A DNA stretch of 64,000 nt from Halomonas sp. M20 (GTDB lineage Bacteria > Pseudomonadota > Gammaproteobacteria > Pseudomonadales > Halomonadaceae): the NCBI RefSeq assembly GCF_020622265.1, contig NZ_JACNMQ010000005.1, forward strand, positions 186,001 to 250,000. The letters run 5' to 3'. The notes under the pieces are model-generated. The model did no database searches. It had not been told where the DNA came from and worked only from the letters and a program-made list of their open reading frames with translations. Shown here one piece after another: positions 16,255 to 36,763 of the stretch. Each line of letters opens with the position of its first letter. The first letter of the stretch is position 1. A program made the translations under genes and the position numbers.

Positions 16255-17871
16255 ATGGGCAACACGGCGTTGCGTAGCATTTCGCAAGAGATGGTTCCTG
16301 CCGACGTGGATATGGATGATCCACTTGCGAAGGACCAGCAGAAAATCACACTACCTGCCGTTATCGAAAAGGCGGCCAGAGCAAGAACCCCTTCCAGGCG
16401 TATCGACAAGGAAGGCAAGAACGAATATGACGTTTTATACGTCACGCCTGAAATAGCCGATCTAGTCAAGGTGGGAGGACTGGGCGACGTCTCATCGGCG
16501 CTGCCTCGCGCGCTTCGCTTGCGTCACGACGTGCGCGTTCTGCTGCCGGCTTACCGCGAAGTCATTCAGTCGAAGCGCAGGATCGAAGTGGTGGGGCACC
16601 TCCCGGCACTAGCCGACATCCCCGCCTGCGACATAGGCCAGATTACCTATCCTGATGGACTGATTATCTATGTGTTGCTATGCCCCGAGCTGTACGAGCG
16701 AGAGGGCAATCCCTATTGCGACGATTCTGGAGTCGGGTGGGAAGACAACGATATACGCTTCGCACGCCTGAGTCTGGCCGCCGCTGAAATCGCCGCGGGC
16801 AACGCAGGACTCAACTGGTGTCCTCAGCTTCTGCATCTCAATGATTGGACCTGTGGGCTGACCGCAGGCTATCTGAAGTGGTGGGGGGAAGCCACGCCCT
16901 GCATATTCACCATCCACAATCTTGCCTATCAAGGCGTGTTCGACGCTTCTCGCTGCAAGGTGCTCGGCGTGCCGGAAGAAGCGATGACCATTGAAGGGGT
17001 GGAGTATCACGGCCAGTTGTCCTACATGAAAGCCGGGATTGCCTACTCCGGTCGAGTGACCACGGTGAGCGCCACCTATGCCAGGGAAATTACTACGCCG
17101 GAGTTTGGCTGCGGGCTCGAAGGGTTGCTGAGCACCAAGGCCGAGCAGGGGCGCCTCATCGGTATACCCAATGGTATCGATGAAAGCTGGAACCCGCGTA
17201 CCGATGCCCATCTGGCGCGGGCTTTCGCCAAGAACGATTGGCGCGGCAAGCGTGCCAATGCTGACTATGTGCGCCAGCTGTTCGGTCTGGCAGTATGCAC
17301 TGGCCCCTTGTTTGCCGTGGTCTCGCGTCTGGTGCATCAAAAGGGTATCGACCTGACCATTGGTGTGGCGGAGTCCATCATTCGCCGAGGCGGGCAGATC
17401 GTGTTCATCGGGCGTGGCGAGCGTGGGACCGAGCGGGCGTTGTGCACTCTGGCAGACCGATTCCCCGGGGCGATCGGTGTCAATATCGGTTTCGACGAAG
17501 GCGAAGCACGCTGCATCTACGCCGGTAGCGACTTCCTGTTGATGCCATCGCGTTTCGAGCCCTGCGGGCTCAGTCAGATGTACGCCCAACGCTTCGGCTC
17601 GCTACCCATTGCCCATCGTACCGGCGGGCTGGTGGATACCATCGAGGATGGAGTGACCGGTTTTTTGTTCGACGAAGTGACATTTGCAAGCTACATGCAA
17701 GCCATCGACCGCGCGTTCAGGGTCTTTCGTGCGACGGATCTATTCTACGCCATGCGTCGTGCTGCAATGGCGGGGCGTTACCACTGGTGCCAATCCATCG
17801 AGCCCTACAACCAGTTGTACAGCACGACCCTCGACGAAATGGAGTTTTCCCATGGGCAAGCTGGCAATTGA
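16255..17871 (+). CDS. glgA: Glycogen synthase (GT5)
   Basis: 538 residues; AAGGAGG 7 bases before ATG 16255. GT5 features: KVGGLGDV (residues 72-79, the donor-phosphate Lys-x-Gly-Gly loop), HLNDWTCGLTAGYLK, FTIHNLAYQG, and the C-terminal nucleotide-binding lobe with SRFEPCGLSQMYAQRFG and HRTGGLVDTI. It adds glucose from ADP- or UDP-glucose to alpha-1,4-glucan. The first 57 residues precede the normal GlgA start (YDVLYVTPEIA) and are an unassigned hydrophilic extension. First gene of the 20-kb glucan/trehalose cluster; it overlaps the next gene by 20 bases. No glgC is in the window. Confidence 0.93.
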   Translation: MGNTALRSISQEMVPADVDMDDPLAKDQQKITLPAVIEKAARARTPSRRIDKEGKNEYDVLYVTPEIADLVKVGGLGDVSSALPRALRLRHDVRVLLPAYREVIQSKRRIEVVGHLPALADIPACDIGQITYPDGLIIYVLLCPELYEREGNPYCDDSGVGWEDNDIRFARLSLAAAEIAAGNAGLNWCPQLLHLNDWTCGLTAGYLKWWGEATPCIFTIHNLAYQGVFDASRCKVLGVPEEAMTIEGVEYHGQLSYMKAGIAYSGRVTTVSATYAREITTPEFGCGLEGLLSTKAEQGRLIGIPNGIDESWNPRTDAHLARAFAKNDWRGKRANADYVRQLFGLAVCTGPLFAVVSRLVHQKGIDLTIGVAESIIRRGGQIVFIGRGERGTERALCTLADRFPGAIGVNIGFDEGEARCIYAGSDFLLMPSRFEPCGLSQMYAQRFGSLPIAHRTGGLVDTIEDGVTGFLFDEVTFASYMQAIDRAFRVFRATDLFYAMRRAAMAGRYHWCQSIEPYNQLYSTTLDEMEFSHGQAGN

Positions 17872-19249
17872 CGTGATGCTGCAAATGGACGAGAAATCGT
17901 CCACGCCCAATCGAAGAACCACCTCGAGTCTGCCGGAGCTTCTTCCACCCCTGGCGCCGGCTGATCGTTGGTACGACGGGCAATGGCTATTACGGCGGAG
18001 CCGTCAGAACTTCACCTCGGCGCCTCTTTCCGTCTACCGCTTCAGTCCAGCGGGTTGGCGTCTGGACGGGATAGGCAGACCTTTGTCCTGGATGGCGCTG
18101 ATCGATCGTCTTTTGCCCTATGTGTCGGATCTTGGCTTCACCCATATCGCATTGACCGGAGTGAATGTAAGGCAAGTCGATGACGAAGCATTTGCCACTT
18201 TCATTCTCGCCTGCCATGAAAGCGATATCGGCGTGATACTGGACTGGGAGGTTGCCCCGCAATCGGAACGTGCAGCCGATGAAGACACCCAGGCCTTTGA
18301 CGATCTGCTCCGCCAGTTGCTCGGGTGGGTAGAGCACTACCATATCGACGGACTCCATCTGAAAGAGCGTGAAGAACGGGTCGATGACGGTCTCATCGAG
18401 TTCTTGATACAGGGCATCGCGAAACGCCGCCACGACGTTCTCATGTTGATTGATCGGCCGGTAGATATGCCGGTTCATCTGTTGACTCGAGTGCTGATAT
18501 GCCACACGCGCTGGTCACGTAATACCTTGAATTATTTACGCGTGCCTGCGGAGTGGCGAGGTAGGGAGCACCACCTGCTGCATGAAAACACGGGCACAGC
18601 CTTTGACATGCATTTTATTTTGCCGCTGCCGGACGAGTCATCGGAAGGTGAGCCGCAGGGCTGGCTCGAGCACATGCCGGGAGACCCCTGGCAGAAGTTC
18701 GCCAATCTGCGTGCTGCCATGAGTTACATGTGGGCGCACCCCGGCAAGAAGCTTTTGGGCATGGGCAGCGAGTTTGCGCAGGGGCATGCATGGCAGTCTG
18801 GTAAATCCCTCGATTGGGAATTGCTGGACCAAACCTTCCATGCGGGCATGCTGCGTCTGGTGGCGGATCTCAATCGCCTGTATGGCAACGAGTCGGCGCT
18901 TCACGAATGCGACATCGAATCCAGTAGCTTCACCTGGGTGATAGGGGATGACGTCACCAATAGTGTCATCGCTTTCTTGCGCTATGGCAGTGAGGGTACC
19001 GCGCCGTTGCTGGTCGTCATCAATTTTACCCCCAGCGTCCTTGAGAATTATCGCATCGGTGTGCCGACCCTGGGCGCCTGGCACGAGGTGCTTAACAGCG
19101 ACAGCGTATTTTACGGCGGTTCGAACGTGGGCAATGCCAATGGCGTCGAGGCCCTGCTGGAGCCGAGTCATGGTTTCCCGGTATCCGTATCATTGACGCT
19201 ACCGCCCCTAGGGGCGTTGTTCTTGAGACAAGGAGATTGGCCAGCATGA
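17852..19249 (+). CDS. Degenerate GlgB paralogue (probable GH13 pseudoenzyme)
   Basis: 465 residues from ATG 17852 (GGAG 8 bases upstream, inside the end of glgA). From about residue 55 it aligns with the catalytic barrel and C-terminal beta domain of the true GlgB encoded at 34520-36763: MPGDPWQKFANLRAAM, HPGKKLL-MGSEFAQ, DLNRLY, SFTWVIGDD and FYGGSN match almost exactly. Both N-terminal carbohydrate-binding domains (about 250 residues) and several barrel loops are missing. Catalytic region I reads DWEVAP instead of DWVPAH; region II reads HIDGLHLKE, so Arg becomes His169 and the nucleophilic Asp becomes Lys171; region III AEES becomes IDRP; region IV HDE becomes PDE. It probably cannot branch glucan. 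It may bind glucan or act as a scaffold. The frame is intact and coupled at both ends (ATGA overlap with treZ). Confidence 0.85.
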   Translation: MGKLAIDVMLQMDEKSSTPNRRTTSSLPELLPPLAPADRWYDGQWLLRRSRQNFTSAPLSVYRFSPAGWRLDGIGRPLSWMALIDRLLPYVSDLGFTHIALTGVNVRQVDDEAFATFILACHESDIGVILDWEVAPQSERAADEDTQAFDDLLRQLLGWVEHYHIDGLHLKEREERVDDGLIEFLIQGIAKRRHDVLMLIDRPVDMPVHLLTRVLICHTRWSRNTLNYLRVPAEWRGREHHLLHENTGTAFDMHFILPLPDESSEGEPQGWLEHMPGDPWQKFANLRAAMSYMWAHPGKKLLGMGSEFAQGHAWQSGKSLDWELLDQTFHAGMLRLVADLNRLYGNESALHECDIESSSFTWVIGDDVTNSVIAFLRYGSEGTAPLLVVINFTPSVLENYRIGVPTLGAWHEVLNSDSVFYGGSNVGNANGVEALLEPSHGFPVSVSLTLPPLGALFLRQGDWPA

Positions 19250-21066
19250 GTATGGACGAAACACCTGCTGCCAGCTTCCGATTCGATCCCCGCTTCGGCG
19301 CCCAGTTACAGACCGATGGCAGAACACGCTTCACGCTATGGGCGCCTACCGCAGAGCAGGTGTGGCTCGAGATAGAGGGGGGCGACAGCCAGTCAATGCA
19401 GCCTATGCAAGACGGCCATCATCAGCTGATCGTTCAATGCGCGGCAGGGGCGCGTTATCGCTACCGAGTGTTCAGCGACGAACACGCTCAAGGACTTGCG
19501 ATCCCCGATCCTGCTTCTCGCGCCCAGCTCGATGATATCGACGGGCCCAGCCTGGTAATCGATCCTGATCGTTACACCTGGCAACATCCTCAATGGCAAG
19601 GTCGTCCCTGGCACGAGAGCGTCATCTACGAGCTTCATGTCGGAACGCTTGGCGGTTTTGAGGGAGTGCGTCAGCGTCTGGCGTATCTTGCTTCTCTGGG
19701 CATCACCGCCATCGAGCTGATGCCGGTAGCGGAGTTTCCCGGCGGGCGCAACTGGGGCTACGACGGCGTACTGCCCTACGCAGTGGAAGCCTCCTATGGC
19801 GATCCGGACGATCTGAAAGCGCTGATCGACGAGGCGCACGGTCATGGACTGATGGTGTATCTCGATGTCGTCTACAACCATTTCGGGCCGGATGGCAACT
19901 ATCTGGCCGCCTACGCAGGCACCTTCTTTCGTGAAGACCTGCCCACCCCCTGGGGTGCCGCCATCGATTTTCGCCAGCCCCAGGTGCGCCGCTACTTCAT
20001 TGATAATGCCTTGATGTGGCTATTGGAGTATCGCTTCGATGGACTTCGCTTCGATGCGGTGCATGCCATTGGTGAGCAGGATTTTCTTACGGAGATGGCC
20101 CGGGAGATTCGTGCGCGGGTCGAGCCCGGGCGTCACGTACATCTGATGCTCGAGAACGAGAGCAATCAGGCCAGTCTGCTCGATCCGACACTTTTCGATG
20201 CCCAGTGGAATGACGACTGGCACAATGTCATGCATGTACTGCTCACCGGCGAGTATGAAGGCTATTACAGCGACTTTACCGAAGGCGCTACCGAGCGCCT
20301 GGCGCGCTGCCTGGGCGAAGGCTTCATCTATCAAGGTGAGACGACTCGCGGCGGCCATGCGCGAGGCGAGTCCAGCGCGCATCTGCCCCCCAGTGCCTTC
20401 GTGATCTTTCTGCAGAACCACGATCAGATCGGCAATCGCGCCCTGGGCGAGCGGCTTGGGTTGTTGACCGAGCCGCAGGCTTTGGTCGCGGCAACGGTGC
20501 CCCTGTTGCTGTCGCCGATGATCCCGCTGCTGTTCATGGGGGAAGAGTGGGGCTCGACGCAGCCTTTTTGCTTCTTCACTTCTCATCATGGCGAACTGGC
20601 CGAGGCGGTACGTAAAGGTCGGCGTAACGAATTCGCGGCTTTCAGCGCCTTCAGCGATGCAGCCACGCGAGAAGCGATCCCGGACCCCAACGATCGTCAG
20701 ACCTTCGTCGATTCCATTCCGGACTTCGACTACCGGGAAACGCCGTCTCATGCCATGTGGTTGACACGTTATCGAAAACTGCTGGCGCTGCGTCAGCGTG
20801 AGATCGTACCTCGCTTGCCCGGCGCTGTCGCCGAAACCGTCGAGGTGCTGGCAGAAAAGGCATGGCTTGCCCGGTGGCGCCTGAATGATCGCAGTCAACT
20901 CGTCATCGCATTGAATTTGCGCGATGACAGAGTCACTGTGACAGGGCTTTCCGGCATAACAGGGCTTCTCTACGAGACTCAGGAAGGGACCGCAGCAAGC
21001 GCAGAGGAAGGATGGCTCGAAAGATATAGCGCCGTTGCCTGGTTGCACACCGATACGCAAGGATGA
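19246..21066 (+). CDS. treZ: Malto-oligosyltrehalose trehalohydrolase
   Basis: 606 residues from ATG 19246, which overlaps the previous stop (ATGA) and has AGGAGA 9 bases upstream. N-terminal CBM48-like domain (about 15-105; FTLWAPTAEQVWL), then a GH13 barrel: VIYELHVGTLG, YLDVVYNHFGPDGNY, FDGLRFDAVH with nucleophile Asp270, the LMLENESN acid region and FLQNHDQIGNRALGERL. The HDQIGNRA-type region IV is typical of TreZ. It releases trehalose from the maltooligosyl-trehalose made by TreY. Its stop overlaps the next start (ATGA). Confidence 0.93.
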   Translation: MSMDETPAASFRFDPRFGAQLQTDGRTRFTLWAPTAEQVWLEIEGGDSQSMQPMQDGHHQLIVQCAAGARYRYRVFSDEHAQGLAIPDPASRAQLDDIDGPSLVIDPDRYTWQHPQWQGRPWHESVIYELHVGTLGGFEGVRQRLAYLASLGITAIELMPVAEFPGGRNWGYDGVLPYAVEASYGDPDDLKALIDEAHGHGLMVYLDVVYNHFGPDGNYLAAYAGTFFREDLPTPWGAAIDFRQPQVRRYFIDNALMWLLEYRFDGLRFDAVHAIGEQDFLTEMAREIRARVEPGRHVHLMLENESNQASLLDPTLFDAQWNDDWHNVMHVLLTGEYEGYYSDFTEGATERLARCLGEGFIYQGETTRGGHARGESSAHLPPSAFVIFLQNHDQIGNRALGERLGLLTEPQALVAATVPLLLSPMIPLLFMGEEWGSTQPFCFFTSHHGELAEAVRKGRRNEFAAFSAFSDAATREAIPDPNDRQTFVDSIPDFDYRETPSHAMWLTRYRKLLALRQREIVPRLPGAVAETVEVLAEKAWLARWRLNDRSQLVIALNLRDDRVTVTGLSGITGLLYETQEGTAASAEEGWLERYSAVAWLHTDTQG

Positions 21067-24000
21067 TGGGTATGAACGATGCGGCCTTGAGAGAACTTGC
21101 CGACGCCGTCGGGTTGATCGAGCAATGGGAAGATAGCGAAGGCAACCTATGCCATCTTGACGACGAGACGCGCCATACACTGCTCAAGGCGCTGGGCTTT
21201 GATGTCGACAATGAAGTCGCGCTGCGTGCCAGCACCGAACGCCTGCAGCGGCTATATCATCCTGCCGGCCCGGATGAGCTGCCGCCGCTGATCAGCGTGG
21301 ATTGTGATACTCCCATCGAGCTGCCCTGTCCGCTCGCATCGGGTACGACATTCACGGTGATACTGGAAACCGGTGAAAAGCGAGAAGGGCAAGCCGATCA
21401 TGAAGGCCGCTTACCCGCCATCGAGAGTCCGGGTTACCATCGCCTGCAGCTGGGCGAGACAACGCTGACTCTGGCCGTGGCACCCCGGCGCTGCTTTGGC
21501 GTGGCGGATGCTTGCGGCAACATCGACGGCGAGACTCAATCGGAACCGCACCTGTGGGGGCTGGCGGTGCAGGTGTATTCCCTGCGTCGTACGGGTGCTG
21601 GCGGCATCGGCGATACCCTGGCATTGGCAGCGCTCGGACGCGCCGCCGCCGAACGCCAGGCGGATGCCTTGGTCATCAGTCCCATGCATGCCATGTTCAG
21701 CGCGGATACTCAGCGCTATAGCCCTTATTCTCCCTCCAGCCGCCTGTTGTTCAACGTCCTGTATGCATCGCCGAGGATCGTACTGAGCAAGGAACTGGTG
21801 GAAGAGGCCATCGATCGGTGCGGACTGCAGGAAGAGCTCGCTCGTCTCGAGGCGGCAGAGCTCATCGATTGGCCTGGGGCGGCTCAAGCCAAGTTGACTT
21901 GGTTGCGCGAGCTTTTCGTTCTGTTCCAGAAGCGCAGCGATCAGGATGATGAAACCGATGTGCTGAAGCGCAAATTCAATGCCTTCCGGGCCGCCGGTGG
22001 TGAACTCCTCGAGGATCACTGTCGTTTCGAAGCCCTGCAAATGGCGCGTTCTGAAGGCAACTGGCGTGACTGGCCCGAAGCGCTACGCGATCCGCGCAGT
22101 CATGATGTTGCGCGATTCGCCCAGGACAATGCCCAGGAAGTGACTTTCCATGCCTTCCTGCAATGGCTGGTCGCGGAAGGGTTGGAGTATGCCCAGGACA
22201 ATATGCGCGATGCTGGCATGGCCCTTGGGCTAATCGCCGATCTGGCGGTCGGGGCGGATGGTGCCGGCAGCCAGACCTGGAGCCGCCAGGAAGAAATGCT
22301 CGAAGGCGTCTCCATCGGTGCGCCGCCGGACTCGTTCAACGTGCACGGTCAGGATTGGGGCCTGGCGTCCTTCTCGCCCCACGGCCTGGTGCGCTCCGGT
22401 TTTCGCAGTTTCATCGATATGCTGCGCACCGCGTTTCGTCATGCTGGCGGGCTGCGTATCGATCATATTCTGGGTCTGCTGCGACTGTGGCTGGTGCCTC
22501 ATGGCGCCTCTGCCAAGCAGGGCGGCTACATCCGCTTTCCATTGAACGACATGCTGCGGCTGGTCGCCTTGGAATCCTGGCGTCATCGCGCCATCGTTAT
22601 CGGGGAGGACCTGGGTACCGTGGCGCCGGGCTTTCGCGACCAGCTCGCGGCGCGCGGCATCCTGGGCATGCGCGTGCTCTGGTTCGAGCAGGATACCCAG
22701 GGGGATTTCATCGCTCCAGATGAGTGGACTGACAAGGCCGCGGCAATGTCCTCGACCCACGATCTGCCCACCGTGGCGGGGTGGTGGTCGGGTTACGACA
22801 TCGATCTGCGAGATCGTTTCGGCCTGCTTGGCGAGAAGCAGGACGCTACCTTGGAGCACCGTCAGCGGGACCGGGAGCGAGTTAGCCTGGCACGAGCGCT
22901 GGGTGTAAGCGACGCCACCGCCAACTCCGCCAGGCTGGCCGCCGACGATATTCCCCTTGCAAGGATACTGGATGCCAGCGCCGCCTACCTTGGCCATACC
23001 CCATCGCCCTTGGTGGTGCTTCCCATGGAAGATGCGCTGGGTCTTGAACGCCAGCCCAATCTACCGGGCACCGTGGATGAACATCCCAACTGGCGTCGAC
23101 GCTGGGCCGAACCGGCGGGAGAACTGCTCGCCGGGGCTTCGATACGCAAGCGCCTGAGTGGACTCGATACGGCGCGTCACGCTGCCCATAAAAACTCGAC
23201 TTCCAGGAAAGAGGCGCTGGAACAAGCATCCCCGACACAATTGCCGAACGAACGCACCGATAGCACAGCAAGAAATGCGACGAGGAGGTCATCTTTGATT
23301 AACAGTATTCGCGCCACCGTGCGACTACAGTTTCACTCCAAATTCACCCTGGACGACGCGCTGCCCTGGATCGACTACTATGCGGATCTAGGCATCAGTC
23401 ATGTCTATGCCTCGCCGCTGCTCGCCTCGCGTAGCGGATCGACCCACGGCTACGACGGTATCGATCCGACCCGCCTCGACCCGGAACTGGGTGGCGAAGA
23501 AGCACTCGAGCGTCTGGTCACCAAGCTGCGCGAACGGGATATGGGGCTGATACTCGATATCGTACCCAATCATGTGGCGGTGGGCGGCTCCGAAAATCTG
23601 TGGTGGCAGGATGTATTGACTCAGGGTCAACGCAGCCCCTACGCCAACTACTTCGATATCGACTGGCACTCGCCGGACCCGTTACTCAGCGGTAAGGTGC
23701 TGCTACCGTTTCTCGGCGGCCCCTATGGCGAAGTACTGCATTCCGGGGAACTGAAACTGAGTTACGAGGCGTCAACCGCAGGCTTCTACGTCGCCTATCA
23801 TGAGCATCATTTCCCCATCGATCCATTGCACTATGGCGCCATCCTGCGTCATGCCAACGAGGACACTTTGCAGTCTCTGGCGAGGCGCTTCGATGAGGCA
23901 CAGAGTAGTGCTGATTCTCAACACGTTCTGATCGAGGCGCGGGAGCGTCTTGCTCATGCCAATGAAAAAGCGGATGTTCAGACCGCGTTACAGGAGGCCT

Positions 24001-26096
24001 TGGCTTGCTTCGATACGACCGATCGACAGGGCGCGGCTGCACTGCACGAACTGCTCGAAAAACAGCACTATCGTCTGGCCTTCTGGCGTACCGCCTCGGA
24101 TGAGATCAACTGGCGGCGCTTTTTCGATATTACCGAGCTGGGCGGGCTCCGTGTCGAAGTGCCGGAGGTCTTCGATGCAACCCACAGTGTGATCCTGCGC
24201 CTGGTGGAACGAGGCTGGGTCGACGGCCTGCGGGTCGATCATGTGGATGGTCTGGCGGATCCCGGGGGTTATTGCCGCAAGTTGCGCCAATGCCTGGAGA
24301 GTCTGGCACAGCATCGCCCGGATAATGTGCCGCGCTATGTTGCGCTTTACGTCGAGAAAATTCTGGCTGAGGGGGAAGCCCTGCATACCGATTGGGGGGT
24401 GGACGGCACCACCGGTTATGAATTCATGAACGAAGTATCCGGACTGCAGCATGATCCGGCAGGCGCGGCGCCATTGCGCGCGCTATGGCGGGAAACAAGC
24501 GGTCGTGGCAGCGATTTTCTTGTCGAGGTGCGCAAGGCCCGGGCGGAAATGCTCGAAAGCGCCTTGTCCAGTGAATTTCACGCCTGCGCTCGGGCGCTGC
24601 TGGCCCTGGCACGACACGATACTGCTACCCGGGACATCACTCTCGGCGCCATCGAACGAGTGCTCAAGGCGCTGGTGGTGCATTTCCCTGTCTATCGCAC
24701 TTATGCGGATGCGAAAGGGCGCCCCGAGGCCGACCGGACGCATTTCGAGCAAGCCAAGGTCGAGGCGCGCGGTGACGTGAATCCACCGGAGCGCGATCTG
24801 CTCGATCAGCTCGATCGCTGGCTGGGAGAAGAAGCGCCCGACGAGTGTCAGGATGAAGAGGCGCGTGCACTACGGCTGCGTGCCATGCAGCGCTTTCAGC
24901 AGCTGACCTCGCCGGTGGCTGCCAAGGCGGTGGAAGATACTGCCGGCTATCGTTCCACGGTGTTGATTTCGCGTAACGACGTGGGCTTCGATCCACAGCA
25001 TTTCAGCCATACTCCGGCTTATTTTCATGAGGCATGTCGCTGGCGCGCGGAGCAGTTTCCTCTATCCCTTGTCACTACGGCCACCCATGATCACAAACGC
25101 GGAGAGGACGTGCGGGCACGATTGGCGGTACTCAGTGAACTGCCTGGGGTGTTTGCAGAGCAGATGCGCCGCTGGCACGAGAATGCGTCCTCCATGCGAG
25201 AAGAGCAGAGCGCGGGGAGTGCGCCTTCACCGGGAGATGAGCTGATTCTTTACCAGATGCTGCTGGGCGCCTGGGCGCCCAACCAGGATCGTGAAGACGA
25301 TGAGGCCATGCGCGGCTTTGCTGAGCGTATCGCCCAGTGGCAAGAGAAAGCGCTGCGTGAGGCCAAACTGCGCAGTCACTGGCTATGGCCTGACAGCGAC
25401 TATGAGGCAGCCTGTCGGAATTTCCTGTTTGGCCTGATCGAAGACTCCGCCTTGCGCAATGAGTTGAGCGATGCGGCGCGAGCCCTTGATCTGCCCGGCG
25501 CGGTCAATGGCCTGGTACAGGTGGTATTGCGCCTGACCGTGCCCGGCGTGCCGGATCTCTATCAAGGCACGGAATTTTGGGACTATAGCCTGGTGGATCC
25601 GGACAATCGCCGCAGTGTCCACTATCAGGCACGTCAAACGGCACTCGCGGAAAGTCATTTGCCTCAGGAGGCATTGACGCACTGGCGTGATGGGCGGGTC
25701 AAGCAAGCGGTCATTGCTCGATTGCTTGCATTGCGCCAGGGGGCTCCGACGCTTTTTGCCCAGGGCGACTACACAGCCATTACGGTAGAGGGTGGCCGAA
25801 AGGAGCATGTGGTGGCATTCAGCCGCGAGCATGGGGAGCAGGCGCTGCTGGTGGTCGTGCCCCGGCTGCCCGCGACCCTGCTCGGTTCCGCCTCTTTGCC
25901 ATTGATACCTCACGAAGAGTGGAGCAATACGCGGCTGCAGATACCGGAATCACTGCAAGGCCAATGGCGCGACGTGCTGACCGGTAATACCGTGGAATTG
26001 ACTCAAGAGACGATAATGATCAGTGAATTGCTGGCACATTTTACTGCCGGTGTTTTTGTCAGCGTTAGTGCAGGGGGAGTGAAAGATGACGGATGA
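21063..26096 (+). CDS. malQ-treY: Fused 4-alpha-glucanotransferase and malto-oligosyltrehalose synthase
   Basis: 1677 residues in one frame. Residues 1 to about 720 are MalQ (GH77): GAPPDSFNVHGQDWG, GGLRIDHILGL with the nucleophile, VIGEDLGTV with the acid, and SSTHDLPTVAGWW. From residue 745 the sequence is TreY (GH13): RATVRLQFHSKFTLDDALPW, SGSTHGYDGIDPTRLDPELGG, INWRRFFDITELGGLR, GWVDGLRVDHVDGLADP and VPDLYQGTEFWDYSLVDPDN. MalQ rearranges alpha-1,4-glucans; TreY converts their reducing end to a trehalose unit. In Pseudomonas the two are separate adjacent genes. A Shine-Dalgarno plus TTG lies exactly at the junction (listed separately), so free TreY may also be made. Overlaps treZ by 4 bases and the DUF2934 gene by 11. 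Confidence 0.9.
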   Translation: MMGMNDAALRELADAVGLIEQWEDSEGNLCHLDDETRHTLLKALGFDVDNEVALRASTERLQRLYHPAGPDELPPLISVDCDTPIELPCPLASGTTFTVILETGEKREGQADHEGRLPAIESPGYHRLQLGETTLTLAVAPRRCFGVADACGNIDGETQSEPHLWGLAVQVYSLRRTGAGGIGDTLALAALGRAAAERQADALVISPMHAMFSADTQRYSPYSPSSRLLFNVLYASPRIVLSKELVEEAIDRCGLQEELARLEAAELIDWPGAAQAKLTWLRELFVLFQKRSDQDDETDVLKRKFNAFRAAGGELLEDHCRFEALQMARSEGNWRDWPEALRDPRSHDVARFAQDNAQEVTFHAFLQWLVAEGLEYAQDNMRDAGMALGLIADLAVGADGAGSQTWSRQEEMLEGVSIGAPPDSFNVHGQDWGLASFSPHGLVRSGFRSFIDMLRTAFRHAGGLRIDHILGLLRLWLVPHGASAKQGGYIRFPLNDMLRLVALESWRHRAIVIGEDLGTVAPGFRDQLAARGILGMRVLWFEQDTQGDFIAPDEWTDKAAAMSSTHDLPTVAGWWSGYDIDLRDRFGLLGEKQDATLEHRQRDRERVSLARALGVSDATANSARLAADDIPLARILDASAAYLGHTPSPLVVLPMEDALGLERQPNLPGTVDEHPNWRRRWAEPAGELLAGASIRKRLSGLDTARHAAHKNSTSRKEALEQASPTQLPNERTDSTARNATRRSSLINSIRATVRLQFHSKFTLDDALPWIDYYADLGISHVYASPLLASRSGSTHGYDGIDPTRLDPELGGEEALERLVTKLRERDMGLILDIVPNHVAVGGSENLWWQDVLTQGQRSPYANYFDIDWHSPDPLLSGKVLLPFLGGPYGEVLHSGELKLSYEASTAGFYVAYHEHHFPIDPLHYGAILRHANEDTLQSLARRFDEAQSSADSQHVLIEARERLAHANEKADVQTALQEALACFDTTDRQGAAALHELLEKQHYRLAFWRTASDEINWRRFFDITELGGLRVEVPEVFDATHSVILRLVERGWVDGLRVDHVDGLADPGGYCRKLRQCLESLAQHRPDNVPRYVALYVEKILAEGEALHTDWGVDGTTGYEFMNEVSGLQHDPAGAAPLRALWRETSGRGSDFLVEVRKARAEMLESALSSEFHACARALLALARHDTATRDITLGAIERVLKALVVHFPVYRTYADAKGRPEADRTHFEQAKVEARGDVNPPERDLLDQLDRWLGEEAPDECQDEEARALRLRAMQRFQQLTSPVAAKAVEDTAGYRSTVLISRNDVGFDPQHFSHTPAYFHEACRWRAEQFPLSLVTTATHDHKRGEDVRARLAVLSELPGVFAEQMRRWHENASSMREEQSAGSAPSPGDELILYQMLLGAWAPNQDREDDEAMRGFAERIAQWQEKALREAKLRSHWLWPDSDYEAACRNFLFGLIEDSALRNELSDAARALDLPGAVNGLVQVVLRLTVPGVPDLYQGTEFWDYSLVDPDNRRSVHYQARQTALAESHLPQEALTHWRDGRVKQAVIARLLALRQGAPTLFAQGDYTAITVEGGRKEHVVAFSREHGEQALLVVVPRLPATLLGSASLPLIPHEEWSNTRLQIPESLQGQWRDVLTGNTVELTQETIMISELLAHFTAGVFVSVSAGGVKDDG
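23283..23297 (+). promoter_or_regulatory. Internal ribosome binding site and TTG at the MalQ/TreY junction
   Basis: AGGAGG at 23283-23288 is followed, 6 bases later, by TTG at 23295, in frame. The encoded product would be (M)INSIRATVRLQF..., the usual TreY beginning, 933 residues long. In the fusion these bases encode the linker residues TRRSSL. Either free TreY is also made, or a former start site was kept after the genes fused. Confidence 0.6.
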
Positions 26097-26700
26097 CGAA
26101 CCGCGTGTACGCCAGTTGGCCTATCGTATCTGGGAATCCGAAGGGCGCCCCGACGGCCAGCAGCAGCGCCATTGGGATATGGCACTCAAGATCGTGAGGG
26201 CGGAACAGGACGCCGGTCATGAAACGTATCTGGAAGAGGAAGGGGAGGTTCAAGAAGAGGAGCCCATTCTGGACGACGAGCTGCCGCTTGAAGACGATGA
26301 GCGAGGCATCGAGGAGAATCGTCTACCGCTTGAAGATCCGGCTGCCGACTCCATGATCGACCCGGAGGGCGACCCAACCCTGGAGGAGGTGCCTTATCGG
26401 GATGATACGGTCATTACCCAGGATGTTCCGGTACAAGACCGGGCCGAGCCCACGGAGGAACCGCTCGAAAGCACCGTCGAGGTGAATGCTTCCGCTGCAG
26501 AGTCGGAGGTCGAGTTCAAGCGCGTACCCAAGACGAGTAAGTGTACTGCGAGCAAGAGCGCTGCGAGCAAGCAATCCGCGAACAAGAAGGCTTCAAGCAA
26601 GGAGTCTGAGAAGAAAGCAGCCAAACCCGCTGCAAAGAAGACGACGACAGCCAAGACGACAGCGACAAGGAAAACCGCGACCCGGGCACGCAAGCCCTGA
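26086..26700 (+). CDS. DUF2934 protein with acidic middle and histone H1-like basic tail
   Basis: 204 residues; GGGGGAG precedes ATG 26086, overlapping the end of the treY part. Residues about 5-42 are a DUF2934 domain (VRQLAYRIWESEGRPDG...HW). Residues 45-145 are strongly acidic (runs of Glu and Asp); residues 150-204 are Lys/Ala/Thr/Ser-rich (KKAAKPAAKK, TTAKTTATRKT) like the tail of histone H1 or AlgP-type proteins. A DUF2934 gene sits at the same place in the Pseudomonas glgX-treY region, so its link to glucan metabolism is conserved. Role unknown; the charge pattern suggests binding of polyanions or regulation. Confidence 0.8.
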   Translation: MTDDEPRVRQLAYRIWESEGRPDGQQQRHWDMALKIVRAEQDAGHETYLEEEGEVQEEEPILDDELPLEDDERGIEENRLPLEDPAADSMIDPEGDPTLEEVPYRDDTVITQDVPVQDRAEPTEEPLESTVEVNASAAESEVEFKRVPKTSKCTASKSAASKQSANKKASSKESEKKAAKPAAKKTTTAKTTATRKTATRARKP

Positions 26701-26783: not shown

Positions 26784-28985
26784 ATGGATACTGAGAATAC
26801 CGACCAGGGCAATGAAACGAATGCTACCAGCGTCGAGGCACCTGGGGTGAGAGATCGCTCCCAGGTAAGCGAGGGCAAATCGTTTCCGCTGGGCGCTTCC
26901 TGGGACGGGCTGGGAGTAAATTTTTCCTTGTTCTCTGCTCATGCTACCCGTGTCGAGCTGTGTCTGTTCGACGCCAGCGGCGAGCATGAAATCGAGCGTA
27001 TCGAACTGCCGGAATATACTGACGAGATATGGCACGGCTATCTACCGGATGCGCGTCCCGGGCAGCTCTACGGCTATCGGGTACATGGCCCCTACGCTCC
27101 GGAAGAAGGGCACCGATTCAATGCCAACAAGTTGCTGCTTGATCCCTATGCCAAGCAGATCGTCGGGGAAATAAAATGGGACGAGGCGCTGTTCGGCTAC
27201 ACCATCGGCCATGAAGATGGCGATCTGAGTTTCGACGAACGGGACAGTGCGCCTTTCATGCCGCGCTGTCGTGTCGTCGATCCGGCCTTTACCTGGGGGC
27301 GGGCGCAGCCGGTGCACGTGCCCTGGGATCGCACCGTTCTTTACGAGACCCACGCTCGCGGCTACACCATGCGCCATCCAGCAGTGCCGGAACCGCTGCG
27401 GGGCACTTTCGCGGGTTTGATGGTCAGTGAAGTAGTGGACTATATCCGTTCCCTCGGTGTCTCCTCCGTGGAATTGTTGCCTATCCACGCGTTCGTCGAC
27501 GATCAGCACTTGCAGGAGAAAGGGCTACACAACTACTGGGGCTACAACACCCTGGGATTCTTTGCACCGCATTCGCCTTATATGGCCGGTGACAATATCA
27601 ATGAGTTCAAGGAGATGGTGGCGCGATTCCATGCGGCGGATCTCGAGGTCATTCTCGATGTGGTCTACAACCACACCGCCGAGGGCAACGAGCTGGGGCC
27701 GACCCTGTCTCTCAAGGGTATCGACAACGCCTCTTACTATCGACTGCTGCCGGATCAAACACGCTACTACATAGACGATACCGGTACCGGTAATACACTC
27801 AACATGAGTCATCCGCGAGTGTTGCAGATGGTGACGGACTCTCTGCGCTACTGGGCCACCGAGATGCGGGTCGACGGGTTTCGTTTCGACTTGGCCACCA
27901 TCCTGGGGCGCGAACCCCATGGCTTCGATGAAGGCGGTGGTTTTCTCGACTCCACTCGCCAGGATCCGATACTCAGCCAGGTCAAGTTGATCGCCGAACC
28001 CTGGGATTGCGGACCCGGTGGCTATCAGGTCGGCAAATTTCCCCCGGGCTGGTCGGAGTGGAACGATCGTTTCCGAGATACCGTACGCTCCTACTGGAAA
28101 GGCGACGAAGGCGCCTTGCCAGAGCTTGCCGCGCGCCTGACCGCGTCCGCGGACATATTCGATCATCGCGGGCGCCGCCCCTTTGCCTCGGTCAACTTCG
28201 TTACTGCCCACGACGGTTTCACGCTGTATGACCTGGTCGCCTACAACGACAAGCACAACGATGCCAACGGCGAGGATAACAACGACGGTCACGACGACAA
28301 TCGTTCCTGGAATTTCGGTGAAGAAGGCCCGACGGAAAATCCCGAGATTCGCGATCTACGCCTGCGCCAGATCCGCAACTTCCTCGCCACTACTCTGTTT
28401 GCCCAGGGTACGCCCATGCTCTTGGCCGGGGATGAACTGCTGCGCACTCAGCAAGGCAACAACAATGCCTATTGTCAGGACAACGAAGTCAGCTGGCTGG
28501 ACTGGAATCTGGGCGCAGATGCCCACGCCATGATCGAGTATCTACGCCGACTGATCGAATTGCGCGAACGCTATCCGATCCTGCGTCGCGGACGTTTCTT
28601 GAGCGGCGAGTACAGCGAAGAGATGGGCCTTAAAGAGGTAACCTGGCTTACCCCGCAAGCCGATGAGATGAGTGTCGAGCGATGGGAAGACCCTCAAGCG
28701 CGCAGTCTAGGGCTCTTGCTCGATGGTCGCGCGCGTCCCTCGGGGATTCGTCGAGCGGGGGTCGATGTCACCTTGTTGTTGCTGTTCAATGCCAATCATG
28801 AAGAAGAAAGCTTCGTCCTGCCGGAGGTGCCGGACAGCGGCAGCTGGATCTGCCGCCTGGATACCCAGCAAGGTCTTGACGTGGATAACCGGCATTACGG
28901 CGTAGGCGACAATTATACGGTGGCGGCACACTCTCTGGTAATGCTCGAGCTGGTGCGCGCAACCCAATCACCGCCCGTGCTTTAG
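26784..28985 (+). CDS. glgX: Glycogen debranching enzyme (isoamylase type)
   Basis: 733 residues; AAGGA 8 bases before ATG 26784. CBM48 domain (about 32-140; GASWDGLGVNFSLFSAHATRVELCLFD), then a GH13_11 barrel: VLYETHARGYT, NYWGYNTLGFFAPH, VVYNHTAEGNELGPTLS, VDGFRFDLATIL with nucleophile Asp369, IAEPWD with acid Glu405, VTAHDGFTLYDLVAYNDKHN. It cleaves alpha-1,6 branches, giving linear maltooligosaccharides for TreY and MalQ. A short non-conserved 30-residue hydrophilic leader precedes the first domain. Confidence 0.94.
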   Translation: MDTENTDQGNETNATSVEAPGVRDRSQVSEGKSFPLGASWDGLGVNFSLFSAHATRVELCLFDASGEHEIERIELPEYTDEIWHGYLPDARPGQLYGYRVHGPYAPEEGHRFNANKLLLDPYAKQIVGEIKWDEALFGYTIGHEDGDLSFDERDSAPFMPRCRVVDPAFTWGRAQPVHVPWDRTVLYETHARGYTMRHPAVPEPLRGTFAGLMVSEVVDYIRSLGVSSVELLPIHAFVDDQHLQEKGLHNYWGYNTLGFFAPHSPYMAGDNINEFKEMVARFHAADLEVILDVVYNHTAEGNELGPTLSLKGIDNASYYRLLPDQTRYYIDDTGTGNTLNMSHPRVLQMVTDSLRYWATEMRVDGFRFDLATILGREPHGFDEGGGFLDSTRQDPILSQVKLIAEPWDCGPGGYQVGKFPPGWSEWNDRFRDTVRSYWKGDEGALPELAARLTASADIFDHRGRRPFASVNFVTAHDGFTLYDLVAYNDKHNDANGEDNNDGHDDNRSWNFGEEGPTENPEIRDLRLRQIRNFLATTLFAQGTPMLLAGDELLRTQQGNNNAYCQDNEVSWLDWNLGADAHAMIEYLRRLIELRERYPILRRGRFLSGEYSEEMGLKEVTWLTPQADEMSVERWEDPQARSLGLLLDGRARPSGIRRAGVDVTLLLLFNANHEEESFVLPEVPDSGSWICRLDTQQGLDVDNRHYGVGDNYTVAAHSLVMLELVRATQSPPVL

Positions 28986-29052: not shown

Positions 29053-31122
29053 ATGAGTCTTTCATCTCGTTCTCGGATGTCGAAAGACGCCGCCGCCAAC
29101 CAGAACGTCGAATCGGATGACGTTGAAATAGATGGCGCTGAAACAAGAGGCTCCAATGTGCTGGCGGCGGCAAGATCAGCCCGTATCGCCATCGAGTCGG
29201 TGACGCCGAGTCTCACCGGTGGCCGCTTCGCACCCAAGGCCGTGGTAAACGACGTTGTGTCTGTATCGGCGGTCATCTTTGCGGACGGTCACGACGTGCT
29301 GGCAGCGCGGATTAGCTGGACTGACCCCCAAGGGCTTACCCAGCAGGCGCCCCTGCATCTGGTACGCCCTCTGGGAAAGGATGTCTGGGAGGGCCAGTTC
29401 GTCCCGACTCAGGTAGGGCGTCATCATTTCATCATCGAGGCCTGGTGGGATCTGTATGGCACTTACCGGGATGAACTGGCCAAGAAGCATCAGGCCGGCG
29501 TTCCTGTCGAGCTCGAACTCGAGGAAGGGTGCCGTTTGGTGGCCAAGGCCGCGCAGCGAAGCGAGGGCGAGCTGGGCGAAAACCTTTCTGCGGTATTGGC
29601 GCGCTTTGAGCAGAGCGAGCAGAACAGTCAGCGGGTGGAAGTGCTGCTTGGCGCCGATACCGCAAACCTGATGGCAGCGGCGGATACGCAAGCGCACCTG
29701 AGCGTGAGCGATGCCGTCTACCCCTTGGACGTGGATCGCAGGGCGGCGAATTTCGCCAGCTGGTATGAGCTCTTCCCGCGCTCGGAAACGACGGGTTCCA
29801 GACGTCATGGCACCTTTGCCGATGTGCAGAAACGTCTGCCCATGATCCGCGACATGGGCTTCGATGTGCTCTATTTTCCGCCCATTCATCCCATCGGGCG
29901 GGCTCATCGCAAGGGGCCCAACAATACTCTGGAAGCGGGCCCCGATGATCCGGGCAGCCCCTATGCCATCGGTAGCCCGGAAGGCGGCCACGAGGCCATT
30001 CACTCGGAGCTTGGCAGCCGCGAGGATTTTCGAGAGCTGGTGCAGGCAGCGGCTCGCCATGGCCTTGAGATTGCGCTGGATTTCGCCATTCAGTGTTCCC
30101 CGGATCACCCCTGGCTTGCAGAGCACCCGGGTTGGTTTTCCTGGCGGCCGGACGGCTCGATTCGCTATGCGGAGAATCCGCCGAAGAAGTATCAGGACAT
30201 CGTCAATGTCGATTTCTACGCCGAAGATGCAGTGCCGGATCTATGGCTGACGCTACGCGACATCGTGCAGCTGTGGGTCGATGAAGGCGTGCGCATCTTT
30301 CGGGTCGACAACCCCCACACCAAGCCCTTGCCTTTCTGGGAGTGGCTGATCGCGGATATCAGAAGTCGCGATCCCGGCGTGCTGTTTCTCGCCGAGGCCT
30401 TCACCAGGCCGCCGATGATGGCGCGGCTGGGCAAGGTAGGCTTCACCCAGAGCTATACCTATTTCACCTGGCGCCATACCAAGGCCGAGCTGACCCAGTA
30501 CTTCACCGAATTGAACGAGTCGCCGCTGCGGGAGTGCTACCGGCCCAACTTCTTCGTCAATACACCGGATATCAACCCCTATTTTCTACAGTCCAGCGGT
30601 CGGCCCGGGTTCTTGATTCGGGCGGCTCTTGCCACCATGGGCTCCGGGCTCTGGGGCATGTATTCCGGCTTCGAGCTGTGCGAAGGTGCCCCGGTGCCGG
30701 GCAAGGAGGAGTATCTCGATTCCGAGAAGTACGAGATACGCCCACGGGACTATACCGCACCAGGCAACATCATCTACGAGATCGCTCAGCTCAATCGCAT
30801 TCGCCGGGAAAACTCGGCGCTGCAGACCCACCTGGGAATAGCGTTTTATCCAGTGGCCAATGAGCGGCTGCTGTATTTCGGCAAGCGCGACGACGCGCAA
30901 GACAACTTCGTGCTGGTCGCGGTCAACCTCGATCCCTTTGAAGTTCAAGAGGGCAGCTTCGAACTGCCTCTATGGGAGCTGGATCTGCCGGATGATGCGG
31001 CACTCCAGGTCGAGGATCTGATGACCGGCCAGCGCTTCACCTGGCAAGGAAAACACCAGTGGATGCGGCTTGATCCGGCGCATCTGCCCTTTGCCATCTG
31101 GCGCATTCAGCCACTGGGTTAG
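29053..31122 (+). CDS. glgE: Alpha-1,4-glucan:maltose-1-phosphate maltosyltransferase
   Basis: 689 residues. AAGGAG about 10 bases before ATG 29053. N-terminal beta domain (about 40-165; PSLTGGRFAPKAVVNDVVSV, EGQFVPTQVGRHHFIIEAWWD), then a GH13_3 barrel: FPPIHPIGRAHRKGPNN, DFAIQCSPDHPWL, FRVDNPHTKP with nucleophile Asp419 and FLAEAFTRP with acid Glu448. It transfers maltosyl units from maltose 1-phosphate (made by the maltokinase encoded next) to glucan. The first 38 residues are a poorly conserved hydrophilic leader. Upstream spacing to glgX is 67 bases. Confidence 0.95.
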   Translation: MSLSSRSRMSKDAAANQNVESDDVEIDGAETRGSNVLAAARSARIAIESVTPSLTGGRFAPKAVVNDVVSVSAVIFADGHDVLAARISWTDPQGLTQQAPLHLVRPLGKDVWEGQFVPTQVGRHHFIIEAWWDLYGTYRDELAKKHQAGVPVELELEEGCRLVAKAAQRSEGELGENLSAVLARFEQSEQNSQRVEVLLGADTANLMAAADTQAHLSVSDAVYPLDVDRRAANFASWYELFPRSETTGSRRHGTFADVQKRLPMIRDMGFDVLYFPPIHPIGRAHRKGPNNTLEAGPDDPGSPYAIGSPEGGHEAIHSELGSREDFRELVQAAARHGLEIALDFAIQCSPDHPWLAEHPGWFSWRPDGSIRYAENPPKKYQDIVNVDFYAEDAVPDLWLTLRDIVQLWVDEGVRIFRVDNPHTKPLPFWEWLIADIRSRDPGVLFLAEAFTRPPMMARLGKVGFTQSYTYFTWRHTKAELTQYFTELNESPLRECYRPNFFVNTPDINPYFLQSSGRPGFLIRAALATMGSGLWGMYSGFELCEGAPVPGKEEYLDSEKYEIRPRDYTAPGNIIYEIAQLNRIRRENSALQTHLGIAFYPVANERLLYFGKRDDAQDNFVLVAVNLDPFEVQEGSFELPLWELDLPDDAALQVEDLMTGQRFTWQGKHQWMRLDPAHLPFAIWRIQPLG

Positions 31123-31182: not shown

Positions 31183-34519
<3,337 letters not shown>

Positions 34520-34527
<8 letters not shown>

Positions 34528-36763
34528 TCAACGCGTCGAATATGCCAAACATACAAGAGACGATGGGCTGAAGCTGGCCGCGGATGACGCGGAAGCATTG
34601 ACCCGAGGCTCTCACGCGGACCCTTTTGCAGTGCTAGGCCTGCAAGAAGGGTCGGACGGCCCATTGTTGCGGGTCTATCTGCCCGGTGCCTTGGGGGTGG
34701 ATGTGCTGGATCGGGATAGCGGTGAGTTTCGCTGTTGCATGACGCCGGTGCAGATTCCGGGTCTGTTTGCAGCGAAATTGCCTCATGCCGCTCCCTACAA
34801 GCTGCGTATCCGATGGCCCCAGGGCGGCGAACAGGAAACGGAAGACCCCTACGCCTTTGGCCTATTGCTAGGCGAGATGGACCTGTACCTGATCGGCGAA
34901 GGCAATCATCGCAACCTGGGTCACTGCCTAGGCGCGCAGCCCATGACCATCGACGGTGTAGAAGGGGTGCGTTTTGCGGTATGGGCACCGAACGCACACC
35001 GGGTGTCCGTGGTGGGAGAGTTCAATAGCTGGGACGGTCGGCGTCACCCGATGCGCCTTCGCCACCCCGCGGGGGTGTGGGAGCTTTTCCTGCCGCGTTT
35101 GGGGCCCGGCGAGGCTTACAAGTACGAGATGATCGATGCCCATGGCGCTTTGACGCTCAAGGCCGACCCGGTGGCCCTGGCGACCCGAATGCCGCCGGAT
35201 ACCGCCTCGGTGGTGGCGGATACCACGCCGTTTACCTGGCAGGACGACGACTGGATCGAAAAGCGCGGCGAGCATCAGGCCCTGAACAGGCCAATGGCCA
35301 TCTACGAGGTGCACGCAGCGTCCTGGCGCAAACACGGCGGGGATGACGGCGAACTGTACAGCTGGCGTGATCTCGCCGAGCATCTGATCCCCTACGTCAA
35401 GGAGATGGGCTTTACCCATCTCGAACTTCTGCCGATCATGGAGCACCCCTTCGGCGGCTCCTGGGGCTATCAGCCCCTGGGCCAGTTTGCCCCGAGCGGG
35501 CGCTTCGGCAGCCCTCAGGATTTCGCCTATTTCGTCGACGCCTGTCACGCCGCCGAAATTGGCGTGATTCTCGACTGGGTGCCGGCGCATTTTCCCACGG
35601 ACCCCCATGGCCTGGCGCGCTTCGACGGCACGGCGCTGTATGAGTACGAGCACCACTTCGAGGGTTTTCACCCGGATTGGAACACCTACATCTTCAATCT
35701 GGGCCGGCGCGAAGTGCATGGCTTCATGCTGGCCTCGGCTCTTCACTGGGTGAAGCACTTTCATGTGGACGCCCTGCGGGTGGATGCGGTGGCCTCGATG
35801 CTGTATCGGGACTATTCCCGCAATGACGGCGAGTGGATTCCCAATCGCCACGGTGGCCGGGAGAATCTGGAGGCGATCGATTTCCTGCGTCATCTCAACG
35901 ACGTCATCGCCGAGGAAGTGCCTGGTGCAGCGGTCATCGCCGAGGAATCCACCGCCTGGCCTGGAGTGACCGAGCCTACAGCAGAAGGCGGATTGGGCTT
36001 TGCCTACAAGTGGAACATGGGCTGGATGCACGACACCTTGAGCTACATGGCCAATGATCCGCTCTATCGCAGTTACGCCCATAACGAGATGACCTTTCCG
36101 CTGGTCTATGCCTTCTCCGAGCGCTATGTGCTGCCTATTTCTCACGATGAGGTAGTACACGGCAAGGGCTCGCTGATCAACAAGATGCCCGGCGATGAAT
36201 GGCAGCGCTTCGCCAATCTGCGGGCCTACCTTGCCATTATGTGGACCCAGCCCGGCAAGAAGCTTCTGTTCATGGGCTGCGAGTTCGCCCAGTGGCGGGA
36301 GTGGAGTCATGACCGGGAGCTCGACTGGTCGCTGCTCGGCGAACCGCGTCACGAAGGCATTCAACGCCTGGTGCGCGACCTCAACCGGCTGTATGCGGAT
36401 CTGCCGGCGCTGCACGAGCGGGACACGGAACCCTCCGGCTTTACCTGGGTCGTGGGTGACGATGCCAGCAACAGCGTCTTTGCCTGGCTGCGCTTCAGCG
36501 CTGACGGTGAGCCGCTATTGGTGGTCGCCAATATGACACCGGTGGCTCACGACGATTACCGTCTTGGAGTGCCCTTGCCCGGACGCTGGGAGGAGTCCTT
36601 CAACAGCGATGCGGAGCACTATGGCGGCTCGAACCAGGGCAATCTGGGAGAACTCACCACGCGAGACGAATCCCTGCACGGCCAGTCCGCGAGTCTTGCC
36701 TTGAGTCTGCCGCCCTTGAGCGTGCTGATGTTGCGTCCAACGCGTGAGAAGACGGTTGCCTGA
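34520..36763 (+). CDS. glgB: 1,4-alpha-glucan branching enzyme
   Basis: 747 residues, a long-type GlgB: N1 domain (about 25-130), CBM48 (about 145-245; [20 protein letters not shown]), GH13_9 barrel with [20 protein letters not shown] (nucleophile Asp422), VIAEEST (Glu475) and [13 protein letters not shown], then the C-terminal beta domain. It makes alpha-1,6 branches in glucan built by GlgE or GlgA. The start overlaps treS, with GGGGGAG before the ATG. Last gene of the cluster; it faces the PhoD-like gene. Serves as the intact reference for the degenerate paralogue at 17852. Confidence 0.96.

Follow-up and report, generated by a model that had tools for sequence, protein, structure and literature searches.

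A pseudo-branching enzyme encoded between glgA and treZ in Halomonas: a putative non-catalytic partner of the trehalose module

A gene in the glucan operon of Halomonas sp. M20 raises the question of what a branching enzyme may become once its active site has gone. The window analysed here is a stretch of 64,000 nucleotides (nt) (NCBI RefSeq assembly GCF_020622265.1, contig NZ_JACNMQ010000005.1, positions 186,001 to 250,000, forward strand). Between its glgA and treZ genes it encodes a 465-residue protein (P0001) related to the glycogen branching enzyme GlgB, referred to below as the pseudo-branching enzyme (coordinates in Table 1). An earlier note on this DNA proposed that it is a pseudoenzyme under selection. 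The loss of the catalytic triad throughout the family, low ratios of nonsynonymous to synonymous substitution rates (dN/dS), descent as one clade, a constant position and coupling, and pruning of the catalytic face all argue for that proposal, and we consider it very probable that the protein is non-catalytic and maintained by selection.

The glgA-treZ slot was surveyed in a family sample of 250 genomes, 75 of which carry glgA at E 1e-80. It holds a pseudo-branching-enzyme gene in 29 of the 75, a full-length GlgB in 16 and neither in 29; in the remaining genome (G017) glgA is followed by a full GlgB, with no treZ within the 7.5 kb fetched. The 29 genomes without a slot gene have a single GlgB match; 12 of these, on inspection, had glgA next to treZ and gave no match at E 1e-3, and the other 17 were classed from the genome search alone. 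Aligning the intergenic genes with GlgB, as the earlier note had advised, yielded 27 intact members, the window's included, that form one clade, are 425-505 residues long (starts chosen in this analysis) and come from five genera (g1, 7; g20, 2; g23, 1; g14, 1; g4, 16). In the other two genomes of the 29 the gene is in pieces (G136) or split over contig ends (G118). The G136 pieces (L127) occupy different frames; the genome is one contig, 93% complete, and the pieces reflect either real decay or assembly errors. G118 (L128, L129, L131, L187) has two glgA places and gene pieces at three contig ends, which suggests a duplicated region. In the window, the open frame, the Shine-Dalgarno-like sequence and the coupling to both neighbours are present as first described, the coupling taking the form of overlaps on either side. 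The ATGA stop/start overlap at the gene's end recurs in 27/27 members, with the ATG in the treZ frame each time. Coupling to glgA is not universal, since in several members the gene starts 39-119 nt past the glgA stop (again with starts chosen here). With 27 intact members in one slot and dN/dS far below 1, the gene is, on comparative sequence evidence, neither a chance frame nor a private relic.

None of the members could be recognized as a complete branching enzyme. Alpha-amylase_C is the sole Pfam match in the window protein and in all 27 members, apart from an additional weak DUF3806 match (E 0.0017) in one of them, and none of the 27 has a CBM48 match (E 0.01) before the barrel. Both N-terminal GlgB domains are thus absent, as had been claimed; GlgB_N and CBM48 are both present in the window's own glgB. 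Against the six NCBIfam GlgB models the window protein scores 301, 289, 273, 269, 202 and 165 bits, below every cut-off (1270, 741, 577, 464, 2376 and 1284 bits, respectively; range 464-2376). At the active site, an Asp/Glu/Asp triad, which would have spoken against a pseudoenzyme, was looked for and occurs in 0/27 members; the window protein has K, D and E at the triad columns. The nucleophile column contains K, M, V, A, P, H and other residues with no new consensus, and the single Asp there (G055) is accompanied by loss of the acid Glu. The region I His, the Trp and Tyr of GSWGY and the region IV His are each found in 0/27 members and the region II Arg in 6/27; some members retain Arg, Asp or Glu at single catalytic positions. 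The substitutions first reported for the window protein, His169, Lys171 and IDRP, hold with their numbering checked, IDRP being residues 200-203. The reported change of the region I His to Pro stands in an ungapped reading (DWEVAP), whereas in the multiple alignment the position is a gap in 26/27 members.

dN/dS was estimated by the Nei-Gojobori method. Values were 0.10-0.17 for six pairs within the window's own group and 0.10-0.20 for 11 pairs in three genera, not near 1. In these 11 pairs the C-terminal 245 codons gave 0.04-0.12, in agreement with the strong C-terminal conservation noted earlier, and the remainder 0.14-0.40; glgA gave 0.02-0.15 and treZ 0.07-0.19. In addition, 48 columns that are invariant in the enzymes remain invariant in 27/27 members. 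The marks of a pseudogene, dN/dS close to 1 and many stops or frameshifts, were not seen, the frame being intact in 27 of the 29 family genomes, and the combination that marks ISA2-like GH13 pseudoenzymes, clade-wide loss of the nucleophile under purifying selection, was found. By these sequence comparisons it is not a decaying gene, and its N-terminal half is loosely constrained.

The predicted model indicates which parts of the enzyme have survived. All eight barrel strands are retained in our own reading of the DSSP lines, and the window protein is 34% identical to Escherichia coli branching enzyme over 424 aligned residues. Clear length losses, in alignment and model, affect the catalytic-face loops b2-b5 and helices a3-a4; all six opposite-face loops measured keep their length in 27/27 members. 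The model of a g4 member also lacks helices alpha4 and alpha5. That only the C-terminal half is left was considered and rejected, as the models show eight strands. A (beta/alpha)8 barrel with a C domain, and common descent with GlgB, are thus found in the predicted model and the gene tree. On the models, the losses comprise the N-terminal domains and the catalytic-face loops; the barrel remains and has not simply decayed. The predicted fold is a compact pseudo-barrel followed by the C domain, and the protein is predicted to be unable to branch glucan.

Ancestry was examined in a midpoint-rooted gene tree of 56 rows and 191 C-terminal columns. The 27 members and a relative from another family of the order (G593, L188:3846-5534) form one clade (100/97). 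Its sister is the clade of the nine full-length slot GlgB included (98/90), and both are split from 19 other GlgB, three of the window type among them (100/97). The ending RQGDW is present in 16/16 slot GlgB and QGDWP in 11/27 members and G593, neither occurring in the 19 other tree enzymes; none of the 16 g4 members has this ending. It supports common ancestry with the slot GlgB, whose catalytic regions I-IV are intact in 16/16 cases (four genera). Tree, ending and intact catalytic regions together identify the pseudo-branching enzyme as a remnant of the slot GlgB. A search of the window's genome with the protein at E 0.01 returned only itself and the window glgB. Descent from that glgB is rejected, because the tree joins the gene with full-length slot GlgB of sister genera. 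By the gene's own tree, the N domain, CBM48, the catalytic residues and most of loops b2-b5 were lost once. The single origin rests on that tree because a quick TreZ tree of 58 genomes (no bootstrap, midpoint root) leaves the g4 group, g17 and G231 at an unresolved fork. At least four state changes of the slot are required on the TreZ tree, where 11/12 genomes without the gene fall within the pseudo-gene group, a pattern that suggests loss subsequent to the origin of the pseudoenzyme.

Searches beyond the family returned one further case. Among the best 80 related loci listed were three close relatives at 83-87%. Of 107 loci (L036-L112, L133-L162), 104 contributed frames to an alignment: 99 carry HRDEHD, three are degenerate (L133, L135 and the window's L134) and two are too short (L105, L107). 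In a class-wide search 15/369 genomes matched at E 1e-95 and, the window aside, all frames were at least 740 residues long; catalytic residues were unchecked here and an independent pseudo-GlgB could score lower. In the order, 125/390 genomes matched at E 1e-60, the sole new case being G593; in the family of G593, 31/151 matched at E 1e-75 with no other frame below 634 residues (residues mostly unchecked). The G593 protein is longer, has Glu at the nucleophile column and by alignment keeps the region II Arg and acid Glu; Pfam finds neither the N-terminal GlgB domain nor CBM48 in it. From its sequence it looks like a half-eroded evolutionary intermediate.

The genomes also differ in where branching is encoded. 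All 29 pseudo-gene genomes carry another GlgB match with an open frame of at least 742 residues, so that loss of catalysis in the slot is confined to genomes with another GlgB. Genomes of g16 and g10 (11 in all) have two GlgB, the full-length slot GlgB being the second. In g8 (G007, G031, G046) and g17 (G016, G037), five genomes in all, it is the only GlgB match at E 1e-20, and the slot copy there therefore seems to do all the branching. glgC was absent at E 1e-30 from 58/58 tested glgA-bearing genomes in all three slot states, and glgP at the same threshold from 56/58, the exceptions being two g17 genomes with an intact slot GlgB; in the window's genome, glgP gave no match and glgC none above the cut-off. 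GlgA here thus probably uses uridine diphosphate glucose, by analogy with Pseudomonas aeruginosa. A switch that followed the loss of classical glycogen metabolism is unsupported by this near-uniform pattern.

What, then, might the protein do? In P. aeruginosa, according to the accessible part of PMC8084333, GlgA makes a linear glucan that TreY/TreZ convert to trehalose, and GlgE with GlgB builds the branched reserve; growth in salt is poor in a glgB mutant that contains insoluble linear glucan. Both modules are encoded in the window, and the pseudo-branching-enzyme gene lies inside the first, which favours a partner that holds linear glucan for TreY/TreZ. We propose that the protein serves the GlgA-TreY/TreZ trehalose module as a non-catalytic partner. 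Coupled translation would tie its production to that of GlgA and TreZ, the linear alpha-glucan from GlgA would be bound on its outer and C-domain surface, and the bound chain would be kept soluble, unbranched and near TreY/TreZ. Surface glucan sites of E. coli branching enzyme, in the part of PMC10254366 available, were mapped by alignment; the site III residue W478 falls just outside it and was not relied on. The tryptophans of sites I and VI are invariant, site V (W544, here W280) is Trp in 24/27, and the site IX H685 position is Phe in 27/27, as in 8/9 slot GlgB. Judged from these positions, glucan binding is plausible. We regard a non-catalytic glucan-binding partner of this module, taken generally, as an even proposition, and the specific role with linear glucan as a tentative suggestion. 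Somewhat doubtful is the fullest form of the idea, in which this is a new protein class: a branching enzyme turned linear alpha-glucan carrier, coupling GlgA to TreY/TreZ in osmoprotectant trehalose synthesis, with a single origin by pruning of the catalytic face of its triosephosphate isomerase (TIM) barrel and the rest of the barrel intact.

Several observations weigh against a glucan-holding partner. The residues of sites II and XI are not retained, site VIII is Trp in 4/27 with no aromatic consensus, site IV disappeared with CBM48, and conservation of sites I, II and VII is restricted to Enterobacteria in the accessible account (PMC10254366). The 11 active enzymes aligned alongside likewise have Trp throughout at W586 and W628, which may therefore be structural. 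dN/dS of the gene exceeds that of glgA in 11/11 pairs and that of treZ in 6/11. Against the wider reading as a pseudoenzyme under selection stand the broken gene in one of the 29 family genomes (G136), the split one in G118 and the loss of the gene from a related lineage. With 29 of the 75 glgA-bearing genomes having one GlgB and no such gene, some lineages can dispense with it, and their pathway operates in its absence. Finally, since glgC and glgP are missing almost everywhere, pathway content hardly separates the slot states.

The strongest alternative, unlikely in our judgement yet a real contender, is a subunit with a regulatory or scaffold role, exerted through contact with GlgA, TreZ or the active GlgB and requiring no glucan binding of its own. 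The conserved parts are the opposite-face loops and the C domain, gene order and coupling are constant, and within GH13 there is the precedent of plant ISA2, the partner of ISA1 (PMC12510319, seen in part). For GlgB as the partner, however, the same genome's active GlgB is not the nearest relative of the gene.

We consider it improbable that the protein is an anti-branching competitor, occupying glucan chains or acceptor sites and so keeping GlgB off the GlgA product before TreY/TreZ use it. Such a role would fit its branching-enzyme ancestry and predicted outer surface, its occurrence only alongside another GlgB (29/29) and the finding, in the accessible part of PMC8084333, that overexpressed GlgB can branch GlgA-derived glucan in P. 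aeruginosa. Catalytically intact full-length GlgB nevertheless fills the same slot in sister genera, where branching at this position is therefore tolerated.

More improbable still, and disfavoured, is a slowly decaying relic whose frame is held only by glgA-treZ translational coupling. The overlaps on both sides in the window, the loss in a related lineage, the pieces in G136 and the faster evolution of the N-terminal half are all what a relic would give. Coupling requires only an open frame, however, not a C-terminal dN/dS of 0.04-0.12 or 48 enzyme-invariant columns kept in 27/27 members, and coupling to glgA is itself missing where the gene starts well after the glgA stop. That the protein is still an enzyme, with altered activity or a rebuilt active site, is very improbable: some GH13 enzymes function with an aberrant triad (PMC5347038, available in part) and single catalytic residues persist in some members, but the nucleophile column has no new consensus and the substrate loops are gone.

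The features of the locus are collected in Table 1. Two neighbouring proteins have features of their own. In the window GlgA, about 58 extra N-terminal residues (16255-16428) precede the starch synthase domain. Between malQ-treY and glgX, positions 26086-26700 encode a 204-residue acidic, Lys/Ala-rich protein with an N-terminal DUF2934, for which an NCBIfam search at E 1e-10 returned no match.

Table 1. Features of the pseudo-branching-enzyme locus, in window positions.
Feature	Positions	Strand	Basis
Pseudo-branching-enzyme gene (P0001, 465 aa)	17852..19249	+	Open reading frame of 465 codons, stop TGA
Shine-Dalgarno-like GGAG, 7 nt ahead of its ATG	17841..17844	+	Sequence
Variable low-confidence tail (residues 1-38) replacing GlgB N domain and CBM48	17852..17965	+	Predicted local distance difference test (pLDDT) <50 at residues 1-40; variable in alignment
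Pruned (beta/alpha)8 barrel (residues 39-350), eight strands kept, catalytic-face loops b2-b5 cut	17966..18901	+	Predicted model, alignment
His169 at region II Arg position	18356..18358	+	Alignment
Lys171 at nucleophile Asp position	18362..18364	+	Alignment
IDRP (200-203) at acid/base Glu region	18449..18460	+	Alignment
Trp322, equivalent to E. coli Trp586 (surface site I)	18815..18817	+	Trp in 27/27
Trp362, equivalent to E. coli Trp628 (surface site VI)	18935..18937	+	Trp in 27/27
C-terminal beta domain, Alpha-amylase_C (residues 361-459), strongest conservation	18932..19228	+	Pfam, dN/dS, alignment
glgA, glycogen synthase, 20-nt overlap with pseudo-branching-enzyme gene	16255..17871	+	
treZ, ATGA overlap with pseudo-branching-enzyme gene (TGA/ATG)	19246..21066	+	
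malQ-treY fusion	21063..26096	+	
glgX	26784..28985	+	
glgE	29053..31122	+	
treS-pep2 fusion	31183..34527	+	
glgB, intact branching enzyme, triad DED	34520..36763	+	

A single operon slot displays a series that runs from intact GlgB (four genera) through the half-eroded G593 form and the pruned eight-strand form to the most pruned g4 members and clean loss, and so reveals which parts of an enzyme outlive catalysis. If the glucan-partner role is true, non-catalytic control of alpha-glucan of the ISA2 type would extend to bacteria, and the system would offer a test of how bacteria reserve linear GlgA glucan for trehalose as opposed to branched glucan. There is also a warning for annotation, since the protein might be mistaken for a second branching enzyme.

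Among the known systems compared, CD98 heavy chain (SLC3A2), an animal membrane glycoprotein of amino-acid transporters, has no known link to glucan metabolism. GlgB itself (GH13_9, EC 2.4.1.18) shares with the pseudo-branching enzyme the fold of barrel and C domain, sequence ancestry and, as its sister clade, the same operon slot; unlike GlgB, the pseudo-branching enzyme has no N domain, CBM48, triad or regions I-IV, and its loops b2-b5 are pruned. In a literature search that mostly lay outside subscription papers, no bacterial pseudo-branching enzyme was described in the parts of the sources available (PMC11046441 included), and as far as that search reaches this is apparently the first GH13 pseudoenzyme for a bacterial branching enzyme. 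The GlgA-GlgB fusion of Waddlia chondrophila is likewise a bacterial GlgB-type sequence without branching activity and is joined to GlgA; its inactivity, however, is ascribed to the fused GlgA and the fusion is considered to be disappearing; it is not a separate, selected gene with pruned loops (PMC7935935, in the part available). GH13 pseudoenzymes as such are known already, and the one closest in kind is plant ISA2 (GH13_11), which resembles the pseudo-branching enzyme in clade-wide catalytic loss, long retention, faster evolution and a place in alpha-glucan metabolism. ISA2 differs in belonging to another GH13 subfamily and kingdom, in having CBM48 and an added N-terminal domain, and in its reported binding to ISA1 (PMC12510319, likewise in part).
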